In this document: one piece after another, positions 1 through 29,493 of the stretch
How positions within the stretch are numbered: position 1 is the first letter of the stretch
How the letters are laid out: every line of letters starts with the position of its first letter
Origin: Sphingomonas sp. IW22
GTDB lineage: Bacteria; Pseudomonadota; Alphaproteobacteria; Sphingomonadales; Sphingomonadaceae
NCBI RefSeq assembly: GCF_041321155.1
Contig: NZ_JBGGWB010000001.1
Coordinates: forward strand, 620,001-684,000
Reading direction: 5' to 3'
DNA: 64,000 nt
Made by a program: the position numbers and the translations under genes
Notes under the pieces: model-generated
Databases searched by the model: none
Told to the model about the DNA's origin: nothing
Seen by the model: the letters and a program-made list of their open reading frames with translations, nothing else

Positions 1-303
1 GACGTCGATCGTCGCATCCGCATCGGTGGGCAAAGCGCCTTCGAATGCGATTTCAATCAAGGCGCGGCCGACACAGATCACTTGGGCGTTCGGCAGTAAC
101 TCGCGCACGCTGGCCGCGATATCGTTGATCAGCATATCGGCCCGCCGACATCCCAGAACGCGACGCAAGGCGGGGAAATTGCAGACCTCGGCCAGGATCA
201 TCAGCCGCCATGGCGCCAGCGCGCGCTGCACCAAACATGGCGTCGCCGACGCACGCGGCGCGTCATTAGGAATCGGATCGAGCGAAGGCACATCCAGCGA
301 CAT
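1..303 (-). CDS. Degenerate GGDEF-domain protein, N-terminal part (runs off window start)
   Basis: This partial gene gives 101 codons from an ATG at 303 down to base 1; an in-frame TAG lies just upstream of that ATG. Residues about 40-90 look like a degenerate GGDEF domain: a stretch reading LGCRRADMLINDIAASV occupies the place of the usual LGHxxGDxLLxxVA helix, and GRALIE stands where GG(D/E)EF would be. Such inactive GGDEF modules usually precede an EAL phosphodiesterase domain, which would lie outside the window. A cyclic-di-GMP turnover or binding role is therefore inference. A CtrA box sits about 100 bp upstream of the start and could serve this gene or the divergent micro-ORF. Confidence 0.55.
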   Translation of the reverse strand, partial: MSLDVPSLDPIPNDAPRASATPCLVQRALAPWRLMILAEVCNFPALRRVLGCRRADMLINDIAASVRELLPNAQVICVGRALIEIAFEGALPTDADATIDV

Positions 304-403
304 TGTGTCCAATCGCTAATCGCAAGCTCTTTCGAAGCGGTTAACTGCGCCTTTCCGGCACAACGGATTATCGCAAGGCAGCGACCTGCATCTTGTATCG
401 AGG

Positions 404-25345: not shown

Positions 25346-25424
25346 CTCCGTCACGGCCAACAGCCTGTCCTACAACCAACCAAATAGGTTACCGGTGAGT
25401 CGATGTGGGACAGGAGGGCTTAGC

Positions 25425-25970
25425 ATGGATATCGACCGGCTGATCGACGAACTCATCGAACGCGAAGGTGGTTTCATCAACCACCCCGCCGACCGTGGCG
25501 GACCAACGCGCTGGGGCGTGACCGAAGCAACCGCTCGCGCCGCCGGCTATCGCGGCGCGATGCAGGATTATCCACGTGCGGCGGCCGGATCGCTGTATTG
25601 CGCGCGTTACTGGCTGGCTCCGCGCTTCGACGCGGTGGCGACGCGCGCACCCGCCTTGGCGGCCGAATTGTTCGACACGGGCGTGAATATGGGGCCTGCG
25701 GTCGCCGCTGGCTTTCTCCAGCGCGCGCTGACCGCGCTCAATCGTACCGGGCGCGACTATCCCGATCTGGCGGTCGATGGCCGTATCGGGCCGCAGACAT
25801 TGGCGGCGCTCGACCGCTTTCTCGCGCTTCGCGAGCCCGGCGGCGAAACGGTGCTGTTGAAGGCGGTGGAGGCGATGCAGGGCGAACGCTATCTGCGCCT
25901 CGCCGAACGCCGCCCCGCCAATGAGGCTTTTCTGTACGGCTGGCTCGCCAACCGTCTGGGCAATCATTGA
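25425..25970 (+). CDS. GH108 endolysin (secretion-activator/ZliS-type muramidase)
   Basis: The protein has 181 residues from the ATG at 25425 with an AGGAGGG site 8 nt upstream. The N-terminal EREGGFINHPADRGGPTRWG holds the family catalytic Glu (Glu14 in EGG); a PG_binding_3 domain follows, with LAVDGRIGPQTLAALDRF. It lacks a signal peptide, as expected for an endolysin that needs a holin, and the next gene (12 bp on) encodes a 3TM holin. In sphingomonads and other alphaproteobacteria this pair is typical of gene transfer agent or prophage lysis. No other phage gene is nearby. Confidence 0.9.
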   Translation: MDIDRLIDELIEREGGFINHPADRGGPTRWGVTEATARAAGYRGAMQDYPRAAAGSLYCARYWLAPRFDAVATRAPALAAELFDTGVNMGPAVAAGFLQRALTALNRTGRDYPDLAVDGRIGPQTLAALDRFLALREPGGETVLLKAVEAMQGERYLRLAERRPANEAFLYGWLANRLGNH

Positions 25971-25982
25971 GGGGGCGGCGCG

Positions 25983-26396
25983 ATGACCATTCTGAATGCC
26001 GTGATCGGCCCGGTGGCCGGTCTGATCGACAAGATCATTCCCGACCCTAAAGCCCGCGATCAGGCAAAGCTGGAACTGCTGAAGCTGGAGGGCAGCCAGG
26101 AACTGGACACGCTGAAAACGCAGTTATCGGCAATCGTGGCGGAGGCGCAGTCGCCCGATCCATGGACCAGCCGCGCGCGGCCCAGCTTTCTGTATGTCAT
26201 GTACGCCCTATTCCTGTGGGCGATCCCGATGGGCCTGATCGCCGCCGCCGACGCTGAAATGGCCGACGCCATCGTGGCTGGGATCACCGGCTATCTGCGG
26301 GCCTTGCCGGAGGAGCTGTATACGCTGTTTGGCACCGGCTATCTCGGTTATACGGCCGCGCGGCAATGGGGGAAGGTGAAGGGCGTGGAGCGTTGA
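25983..26396 (+). CDS. Holin of the GTA 3TM family
   Basis: The protein has 137 residues. It has an N-terminal amphipathic part (GPVAGLIDKIIPDPKARDQAKLELLKLE) typical of the GTA_holin_3TM family, then SRARPSFLYVMYALFLWAIP and the C-terminal LFGTGYLGYTAARQWGKVKG. It is expected to form membrane lesions that release the endolysin encoded 12 bp upstream. It ends 51 bp before hslV. Confidence 0.88.
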   Translation: MTILNAVIGPVAGLIDKIIPDPKARDQAKLELLKLEGSQELDTLKTQLSAIVAEAQSPDPWTSRARPSFLYVMYALFLWAIPMGLIAAADAEMADAIVAGITGYLRALPEELYTLFGTGYLGYTAARQWGKVKGVER

Positions 26397-26447: not shown

Positions 26448-26999
26448 ATGAGCAAATCGACAGCGTGGCACGGCACGACGATTCTTTCCGTGCGCCGATC
26501 GGGCAAGGTGGTGATTGCGGGCGACGGACAGGTCTCCGCCGGACAGACCGTGATGAAGCCCAATGCCCGCAAGGTCCGCCCGTTGGGCGACGGCAAGGTG
26601 ATTGCAGGGTTCGCCGGCGCGACCGCCGATGCCTTTACCCTGTTCGAGCGGCTGGAAGCCAAGCTTGAGCGTCATCAGGGCCAGTTGCTGCGCGCCGCGG
26701 TCGAGCTGGCCAAGGACTGGCGCACCGACAAGTTTCTTCGCAATCTGGAAGCGATGCTGATCGTCGCGGACAAGGATGTGACGCTGGTCGTCACCGGCAA
26801 CGGCGACGTGCTAGAGCCCGAAGGCGGCATCGCGGCGATCGGTTCGGGCGGCAACTTTGCCCTCGCCGCCGCCCGCGCGCTGGCCGATTACGAGGCAGAT
26901 CCAGAGGTGCTGGCGCGCAAGGCGATGGGCATCGCCGCCGATCTGTGCGTCTATACCAACGATCGGCTGACGGTGGAGACGCTCGACAGCGCGACGTGA
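26448..26999 (+). CDS. hslV: ATP-dependent protease peptidase subunit HslV
   Basis: The protein has 183 residues. It is the proteolytic core of the HslVU heat-shock protease. The catalytic Thr is residue 10 in [11 protein letters not shown], exposed after propeptide removal; the GDGQVSxGxTVMKxNARKVR and [17 protein letters not shown] blocks are family hallmarks. No SD is present upstream and a good RpoH-like promoter abuts the ATG, so the mRNA may be leaderless. hslU lies 1.2 kb downstream, separated by a flavoprotein gene, whereas most genomes have the two adjacent. Confidence 0.97.
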
Positions 27000-27043: not shown

Positions 27044-28144
27044 ATGCCCGTCGCCCGCCGCACCCTTGTCGCCAGCGCGCTCGCGCTTCCTGCCTGTGCG
27101 CCGACGGCGCGGCTGTCGTTGGCGCAGGCGCCCGCCTGTCTGCCGCCGGTTCGCGCGGAAATCGGCCGGATCATTCGCACCGTCGCGGGCCTGCGGCCCT
27201 ATCGGCCGTCGGGCTTCGTCGTTCGAGCCGATGCGCTGGCGGGCAAGCGGCTGGTTCATAATTACGGGCATGGCGGCGGCGGCATTACGCTGAGTTGGGG
27301 GACCAGTCGGCTGGCGATCGGATTGGGCCTGCGGGGCCATCGCGGCGATGTCGCGGTGATCGGGGCGGGCGCGGTGGGGCTGGCGACTGCGCGGCTGGCG
27401 CAGGAAGCGGGCTTTGCCGTCACCCTTTATGCAAAGGCACTGCCGCCGGAGACGACGTCGAACATCGCGGGCGGACAGATCGTGCCGACCAGCGTGTTCG
27501 ATGAAGGGCACGTTACGCCTGCCTGGTTCGATCAATATCGCGCGGCGATGGATTATAGCTGGCGGCGGTTCCAGATCATGGTCGGGGACGATTACGGCAT
27601 CCACTGGCTGCCGACATGGCAGCCCGCACGACGTACGCGCGACGGCGACGATCCAGAGGCGTTCCTCGCCGCCTATCAGCCTGCAAGGACTGAACTCGCG
27701 GCGGGGCGGCATCCGTTCGGCCCACGCACGATGATGCGGTTCGATACCATGTATGTCGAAACAGGGCGCTATTTGTCGCGGATGATCGCCGATTTCCAGC
27801 GCGCGGGCGGCCGCATCGTCATTCGCGATTTCGCCAGCCCCGCCGATGTCGCGACCCTGAGCGAAGGGCTGGTGTTCAACTGCACCGGTCTGGGTGCCCA
27901 TCATCTGTTCGGCGACAGCGAATTGGTGCCCGTGCGCGGGCAGCTGGCCGTGCTGTTGCCGCAGCCGGAACTGGACTTCGCCTATGCAGGACCATGGGGT
28001 TACATGTTCCCGCGCGCCGACGGTGTGGTGCTGGGCGGCACGTTCGAACGCGGTGAGTGGGATGCGACGCCACAGCCCGCTGACATTGCCGGGATCGTCG
28101 CCGACCATGCGCGACTGACGGGGACATGGCGCTGTCCGACTTGA
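27044..28144 (+). CDS. D-amino-acid-oxidase-like FAD protein with circularly permuted motif order
   Basis: The protein has 366 residues. The N-terminus [18 protein letters not shown] suggests a twin-arginine-like export signal with a lipobox-like end (Cys18). Next come motifs that in DAAO sit at the C-terminus: [12 protein letters not shown] (47-57) and [16 protein letters not shown] (71-86). Only then comes the FAD-binding [16 protein letters not shown] (103-118) and TTSNIAGGQ (138-145), and the chain ends with [20 protein letters not shown] and a short helix, where DAAO would continue to GLRP. This is a circular permutation of the DAO fold. It lies between hslV and hslU on the same strand. 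Substrate and location are inferred only. Confidence 0.85.
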
Positions 28145-28200: not shown

Positions 28201-29493
28201 ATGAACGAACAACTCACGCCCAAGGCGATCGTCGCCGCACTCGATTCGCACATCATTGGGCAAAAGGACGCCAAGCGCGCGGTCGCCGTCGCCCTTCGCA
28301 ACCGCTGGCGGCGGCAACAGCTCTCCGCCGATCTGCGTGACGAGGTCAGCCCCAAGAACATCCTGATGATCGGCCCGACTGGCTGCGGCAAGACCGAGAT
28401 CAGCCGCCGTCTGGCCAAGCTGGCCGACGCGCCGTTCGTCAAGGTTGAGGCGACCAAGTTTACCGAAGTCGGCTATGTCGGGCGCGACGTCGAACAGATT
28501 GCCCGCGACCTGGTCGAGGAAGCGATCCGGCTGGAAAAGGAACGCCGCCGTACCGCCGTAAAGGACAAGGCGGAGGCTGCGGCCATGACCCGCCTGCTCG
28601 ACGCGCTGACCGGCAAGGACAGCTCGCAGGCCACGCGGGAGAGCTTCCGCCAGCGGCTGAACGAAGGGCATCTGGACAATACCGAGATCGAGATCGAGCT
28701 GGAGGCGGCATCGAACGCCCCGTTCGAAATCCCCGGTGCCGGGCCGCAGATGATCAATCTGGGCGAGATGATGAAGTCGTTCGGCGGCCCGCAGCTGAAG
28801 CGGCGCAAGATGAACGTCCATGCCGCCTGGGCCAAGCTGGTCGAGGAAGAAGCCGACAAGCGGCTGGATCAGGACGAGGTACACCGCGCCGCGCTGGCCG
28901 ATGCGGAAGCCAATGGCATCGTGTTCCTCGACGAGATCGACAAGATCGCCGTCAGCGATGTGCGCGGCGGATCGGTCAGCCGTGAAGGCGTTCAGCGCGA
29001 CCTGCTGCCGCTGATCGAGGGCACGACCGTTGCCACCAAATACGGGCCGATGAAGACCGACCATGTGCTGTTCATCGCATCGGGCGCATTCCATGTGGCC
29101 AAGCCCAGCGACCTGCTGCCCGAACTTCAGGGGCGCCTGCCGATCCGGGTCGAGCTGAAGGGGCTGACCGAGGATGATTTCGTCGCCATCCTGTCCGACA
29201 CCAAGGCCAGCCTGCCCGAACAATATAAGGCGCTGATCGGCACCGAAGGGGTCAGCATCGACTTCACCGCCGACGGCATTCGCGCCATCGCCCGCATCGC
29301 GGCGGAGGTGAACGGGGAAGTCGAGAATATCGGCGCGCGCCGGTTGCAGACGGTGATGGAAAAGCTGCTGGAAGAAATCAGCTTCGATGCAGAGGATCGA
29401 CAGGGCGCGACGCTGACCGTCGACGCCGCCTATGTCGAGGCGCAACTGGCCGACATTGCGCGCAACACCGACCTCAGCCGCTACGTGCTGTAA
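28201..29493 (+). CDS. hslU: ATP-dependent protease ATPase subunit HslU
   Basis: The protein has 430 residues from [15 protein letters not shown] at 28201; the longer frame overlaps the preceding gene. It is an AAA+ unfoldase partner of HslV. Seen are [22 protein letters not shown], Walker [10 protein letters not shown] about residue 60, the pore motif EVGYVGRDV, an intermediate I-domain (about 110-240), Walker [13 protein letters not shown] and the C-terminal RYVL that inserts into HslV. The SD is weak (CCCGGA). Confidence 0.97.

Follow-up and report, generated by a model that had tools for sequence, protein, structure and literature searches.

The closest described relatives of the gene analyzed in this study are D-amino-acid oxidase (DAAO) and D-aspartate oxidase (DASPO), represented here by human DASPO (6rkf), pig DAAO (1kif) and a fungal DAAO (7ct4), which share with its product the GxGxxG, TTS and GGT motifs, the GLRPxRP motif with its carboxylate-binding arginine, and the HNYGHGG block. 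We take Arg283 of the pig enzyme to be the carboxylate-binding residue and Tyr228 and Tyr224 to be active-site residues. The gene lies in a 64,000-nucleotide stretch of the Sphingomonas sp. IW22 genome (contig NZ_JBGGWB010000001.1, positions 620,001 to 684,000; hereafter the window) and encodes a DAAO-like protein of circularly permuted chain order. Judged from its sequence, the product is likely to be a permuted flavoenzyme of the DAAO/DASPO branch that is exported by twin-arginine translocation (Tat), anchored to the membrane and active on D-amino acids or their close relatives.

The DAO domain PF01266 matches the 366-residue protein in two stretches (E 4.4e-32, 112.4 bits vs. a gathering cut-off of 27.9). 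The first-pass annotation, made from the letters alone, had placed GLRP and the HNYGHGG block before GxGxxG and had the protein stop where DAAO continues to GLRP, and both statements hold. GLRPYRP occupies residues 49-55, the HNYGHGG-type block residues 72-86 and GAGAVG, the motif binding flavin adenine dinucleotide (FAD), residues 107-112; TTSN (137-140) and LGGT (330-333) follow, and the chain ends after one more helix, shortly past the helix after LGGTFxxGxW, where DAAO proceeds to GLRP. A canonical profile of 321 positions, built from 123 canonical-order bacterial DAAOs, aligns to the native protein in two complementary pieces, profile positions 3-248 with residues 102-354 (118.8 bits) and 241-310 with residues 21-89 (51.2 bits). 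When the chain is rotated in silico at residue 101 and stripped of its leader and last six residues, a single match results over profile positions 3-310 of 321, with 164-184 bits for five leader cuts vs. ~119 bits for the best native piece; with the leader kept, the two pieces stay unjoined. Residues 18-95 alone score 55.6 bits against this profile, the best of 1000 shuffles reaching 3.5. A phmmer comparison with PDB sequences pairs residues 102-347 with positions 14-259 of human DASPO and residues 43-91 with positions 279-330 (both significant, order swapped), and the same swapped order is found in the two alignments shown of a permuted profile (80 rows: the window protein, 12 hit proteins and 67 of 80 genome loci) with DASPO and the fungal DAAO 7ct4. 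A misassembled gene with its missing parts elsewhere was looked for in the strain's own genome, where a six-row canonical alignment (E up to 1e-5) found no match besides the window gene, itself in two pieces. The proposal that all parts are present once in permuted order is thus confirmed at the level of sequence, with none missing and none doubled. The chain order canonical for the DAAO/DASPO family is absent from the window protein and from all 104 permuted sequences described below.

An AlphaFold2 model of the whole protein (predicted template-modelling score 0.89) places residues 41-100 inside one fold at a predicted local distance difference test value of ~97, so that this stretch of the N-terminal 100 residues, whose failure to complete the fold had been named as a refuting outcome, is confidently built into it. 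Structural alignments to DASPO/DAAO give the same fold over residues 100-361, starting near residue 100 with the moved block unaligned; this block may take a DAAO-like place in three dimensions.

A phmmer alignment with pig DAAO equates Arg51 with Arg283, Tyr320 with Tyr228 and Trp318 with Tyr224. Arg51, His72, Tyr74, His76 and Gly86 are each present in 80/80 rows of the permuted alignment and a tyrosine stands at the Tyr320 position in 71/80. Since Arg51 and Tyr320 are kept and the Trp318 position varies, the carboxylate site looks retained and the remaining pocket altered; the protein presumably binds FAD. It stays below the cut-off of each of the 12 listed NCBIfam families. A different function is the most serious alternative, possible in our view but the less probable choice: the permuted, exported fold could serve as a periplasmic dehydrogenase, or as an enzyme for another amine (an N-methyl amino acid, an opine, or an amine derived from peptides or from the cell wall), with cytochrome c or quinone as electron acceptor. 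Loss of the Tyr224 position would suit such a role, as would the Kozakia baliensis locus (L103:6065-6493), in which a cytochrome c gene lies directly 3' of the permuted gene and genes for peptidase-like hydrolases lie 5'. However, the adjoining cytochrome c gene occurs in this one locus only, Arg51 and Tyr320 are kept, and the nearest solved relatives among the matches listed are DASPO and DAAO, not glycine or sarcosine oxidases. Also in favor of another function is a divergent permuted subgroup (L088-L094, L101 and L103), mostly with a Tat/lipobox leader, in which a SARATG-like sequence replaces TTSN and the GGT motif is missing; because of these two changes, its function may differ from that of the rest.

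Permuted relatives are numerous. A homologue search returned 7530 of 8000 scored proteins under E 0.001, some of which may be non-permuted, and in all 120 hits listed, as in the query, HNYGHGG falls within the first 45% of the chain. A genome scan, which retained the top 80 loci out of 525 relatives, contributed to a set of 107 loci classed by motif position into 98 permuted, six canonical and three without a usable motif-bearing open reading frame (ORF; two ThiO loci and L102, where the gene is split). The profile order is swapped in 104/104 sequences (the 98 loci, the window protein and five hit proteins). By record titles, the permuted loci belong to nine phyla, several represented here by metagenome bins only: Pseudomonadota, Acidobacteriota, Gemmatimonadota, Bacteroidota, Chloroflexota, Zixiibacteriota, Eremiobacterota, Dadabacteria and Actinomycetota. 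Scanned with the permuted profile, 15/299 genomes of the phylum (all 15 read as permuted) and 44/199 of the family had a match, the strain's own genome included in both, as had 16/149 genomes of Acidobacteriota; there, ten matches extend over almost all of the profile, the pattern of permuted genes, and six over its later part only; five of these six were read (L177-L181) and show canonical order and no Tat leader. The permuted proteins are a real and widespread family, neither an assembly error nor a one-off. The permutation read by the first-pass annotation is borne out, in a family rather than in an isolated oddity.

For phylogenetic analysis, permuted sequences were rotated back and eukaryotic DAAOs left out. 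In a careful tree of rows hand-picked for diversity (34 permuted out of the 104, with 16 canonical and two ThiO), a single branch separates all permuted rows from the rest (bootstrap 93, Shimodaira-Hasegawa-like approximate likelihood-ratio test (SH-aLRT) 65, recovered in 92% of 200 bootstrap trees), and another sets apart all canonical rows (98/93); a quick tree (53 permuted, 18 canonical, two ThiO) concurs, with SH-aLRT values of 80 and 96, respectively. In the rooted trees, the permuted clade stands beside leaderless canonical DAAOs. Since ThiO has canonical order, permutation is most probably the derived state, in a single clade. That it arose several times, or is ancestral with the canonical order derived, seems to us improbable: the SH-aLRT values of the permuted clade and the omission of eukaryotic DAAOs speak for it, and are opposed by the one branch in both trees, its recovery in most bootstrap trees, and the canonical order of the two outgroup ThiO rows and the eukaryotic solved structures shown.

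The Tat/lipobox-like leader described by the first-pass annotation is conserved across phyla. Arg5, Arg6 and Cys18 are invariant in a 13-row alignment that includes the window protein. A twin arginine precedes the fold in 95/98 permuted loci, and a lipobox was found in 78/98 by a regular expression applied without a shuffled control; several loci without a match show a cysteine or an AxA-like site missed by the expression. Among proteins P0001-P0121, 117 have the twin arginine and 118 the lipobox. The listed canonical relatives of L097 (n = 120) have a twin arginine in the leader in two cases and a median of 7.5 residues before GxGxxG. The strain's own genome encodes TatC (235.3 bits), Lgt (260.9) and LspA (120.8), each above cut-off. 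The Tat system transports folded, cofactor-loaded proteins, and this route would therefore suit a FAD enzyme. Together, these features point strongly to Tat export of the window protein and suggest its anchoring in the membrane via Cys18. A cytoplasmic sphingomonad enzyme, whose N-terminal stretch is no Tat lipoprotein leader, is an unlikely alternative on balance: arginine is common in GC-rich leaders, the motif counts have no shuffled control and a proline at position -2 of a lipobox (LPAC) is unusual, yet twin arginine, hydrophobic stretch and cysteine recur across phyla although the surrounding sequence diverges, and the three residues do not vary in the 13 rows. The last alternative, that misassembly, a frameshift or the fusion of a fragment whose true counterparts lie elsewhere produced the chain order artificially, has a negligible chance of being correct: no observation spoke for it, and it is ruled out by the 104/104 permuted sequences from many assemblies and by an own genome with no further canonical match at E up to 1e-5.

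Under the preferred interpretation, an exported permuted oxidase, a short linker joins the old C- and N-termini, and new termini were opened in the segment that runs from the helix following LGGTFxxGxW to the strand preceding GLRPxR. In the cytoplasm, the protein would adopt the usual DAAO fold and bind FAD; it would then cross via Tat in folded form, and a lipidated Cys18 would tether it on the periplasmic side of the membrane. There, D-amino acids or alpha-carboxylate relatives, held by Arg51 and Tyr320, would probably be oxidized to imino/keto acids, with oxygen or a periplasmic acceptor taking up the electrons. For the family as a whole, we give about even chances to the broader proposal that one ancient permutation gave rise to a class of exported, membrane-anchored D-amino-acid oxidases in many phyla, with leaderless relatives paired with a thiamine diphosphate (ThDP)-dependent enzyme.

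Several observations weigh against the preferred interpretation. Three of the 98 permuted loci lack the twin arginine (L094, whose open segment starts after an in-frame stop, L095 and L098), and L102, L202 and L203 are permuted and, like L095 and L098, leaderless. At the site of DAAO Tyr224, conservation is lost: the window protein has Trp318, and its relatives vary. The N-terminal piece modelled alone folds poorly and matches nothing. The SH-aLRT support of the permuted clade is just 65 in the careful tree. No member of this clade was recognized among the 60 of 73 solved-structure matches shown, and none with an assayed activity was found in the open-licence PubMed Central papers searched. 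Outside sphingomonads, no neighbor is common to more than four of 57 loci, and a second comparison saw no sharing among more than two loci, although its crude gene caller overlooked the DAAO gene itself in 2/17 loci.

Since permuted genes without a leader exist, permutation and export can part, and permutation needs no export. In four leaderless loci from a plasmid collection (L098, L102, L202 and L203; the hosts, not in this order, are Bradyrhizobium, Rhizobium, Mesorhizobium and Nonomuraea), the permuted gene is directly followed by a gene for a ThDP-dependent enzyme; these enzymes are related, with 42.8-44.3% identity to the Nonomuraea one. In L202 and L203, a gene for a FAD-binding oxidoreductase precedes the two genes. 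No match to the ThDP-dependent enzyme was found among the other loci examined, including leaderless L095/L195. The arrangement would fit keto-acid production followed by decarboxylation, the partner being probably a keto-acid decarboxylase, and looks like a mobile cassette. On the Mesorhizobium plasmid pOM4 (L102:4926-5989), the permuted gene is annotated as two overlapping genes and may therefore be broken. A genome of the same family as the strain (L182) has an intact permuted gene and, upstream of it, a decayed partial second copy, a 119-residue ORF with a leader, GLRP and an HNHGHGG variant.

In sphingomonads the gene has a recurrent position. Among loci L002-L081, 20 of the 22 from this group (L002-L021, L033 and L076) have hslV before it and hslU after it; of the remaining two, L007, which lies at a contig end, has just hslV, and L011 has neither. 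Both genes are also present in L082 (the window) to L085, giving 24 such loci in total. The end of hslV lies <200 bp from the match in 16/24 loci; in the other eight the gap is 440-1168 bp, so that another gene may sit there. Genes for a GH108 lysozyme and a gene transfer agent (GTA)-type holin with three transmembrane segments are located just upstream of hslV in the window (25395-26396), and several further sphingomonad loci have GH108 or holin relatives close to hslV.

Table 1. Positions, in window coordinates, of the permuted gene, its parts and its flanking genes.
Feature	Position	Strand	Basis
Permuted DAAO-like gene, 366 aa plus stop	27044..28144	+	ORF, PF01266 DAO
Residues 1-17, putative twin-arginine leader (R5, R6) with hydrophobic stretch ending ALALPA	27044..27094	+	sequence, alignment, distant loci
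Cys18, predicted lipidated +1 residue of lipobox (LPAC)	27095..27097	+	alignment, regular expression
Residues 38-96, canonical DAAO end block (GLRP, HNYGHGG...SWG, last helix), N-terminal here	27155..27331	+	profile, phmmer, AlphaFold2
Arg51, aligned with pig DAAO Arg283	27194..27196	+	alignment
Residues 97-101, short linker from old C-terminus to old N-terminus	27332..27346	+	location between the two matches
Residues 102-360, Rossmann FAD-binding part and most of substrate domain (canonical 1 to ~269)	27347..28123	+	
Tyr320, aligned with pig DAAO Tyr228	28001..28003	+	alignment
hslV, protease subunit, 44 bp upstream of permuted gene	26448..26999	+	PF00227, synteny
hslU, ATPase subunit, 56 bp downstream; likely start 28201 (start inferred)	28201..29493	+	AAA domains, synteny

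To our knowledge, it is uncommon for a natural circular permutation to found a large enzyme family. This one puts the substrate-binding arginine strand and the HNYGHGG block at the front of the chain, usually together with export, and the family offers a natural experiment on the tolerance of the DAAO fold for new termini. If active, these proteins would oxidize D-amino acids (e.g., from cell-wall turnover or from neighbors) outside the cytoplasm of many soil and water bacteria; a single ancient permutation, if true, would imply extracytoplasmic D-amino-acid oxidation and perhaps peroxide production. The family also exposes an annotation blind spot, in that linear profile matches label permuted proteins as plain DAO or FAD-dependent oxidoreductase.

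Compared with known systems, the window protein differs from DASPO and DAAO in its permuted order, its Tat/lipobox-like leader and the lack of a tyrosine at the Tyr224 position. Canonical-order bacterial DAAOs (L097 and five others on Actinomycetota plasmids; L177-L181 in Acidobacteriota) belong to the same family and share its motifs; unlike the window protein, the listed relatives of L097 are unpermuted, with the HNYGHGG-type motif C-terminal in 117/120 and unrecognizable in 3/120. Glycine oxidase ThiO (TIGR02352), of the same superfamily, has canonical order in the two rows read, and was rejected as an identity since the window protein scores 54.6 bits, far below the cut-off of 250.8. DadA (NF001933 and NF009074) has the Rossmann start alone in common and was likewise rejected (23.2 and 24.0 bits vs. 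383 and 494). No description of a permuted DAAO was found in the open-licence PubMed Central papers searched. Overall, we rate the fold and the motifs of this protein as already known, and its chain order and cellular place as new.
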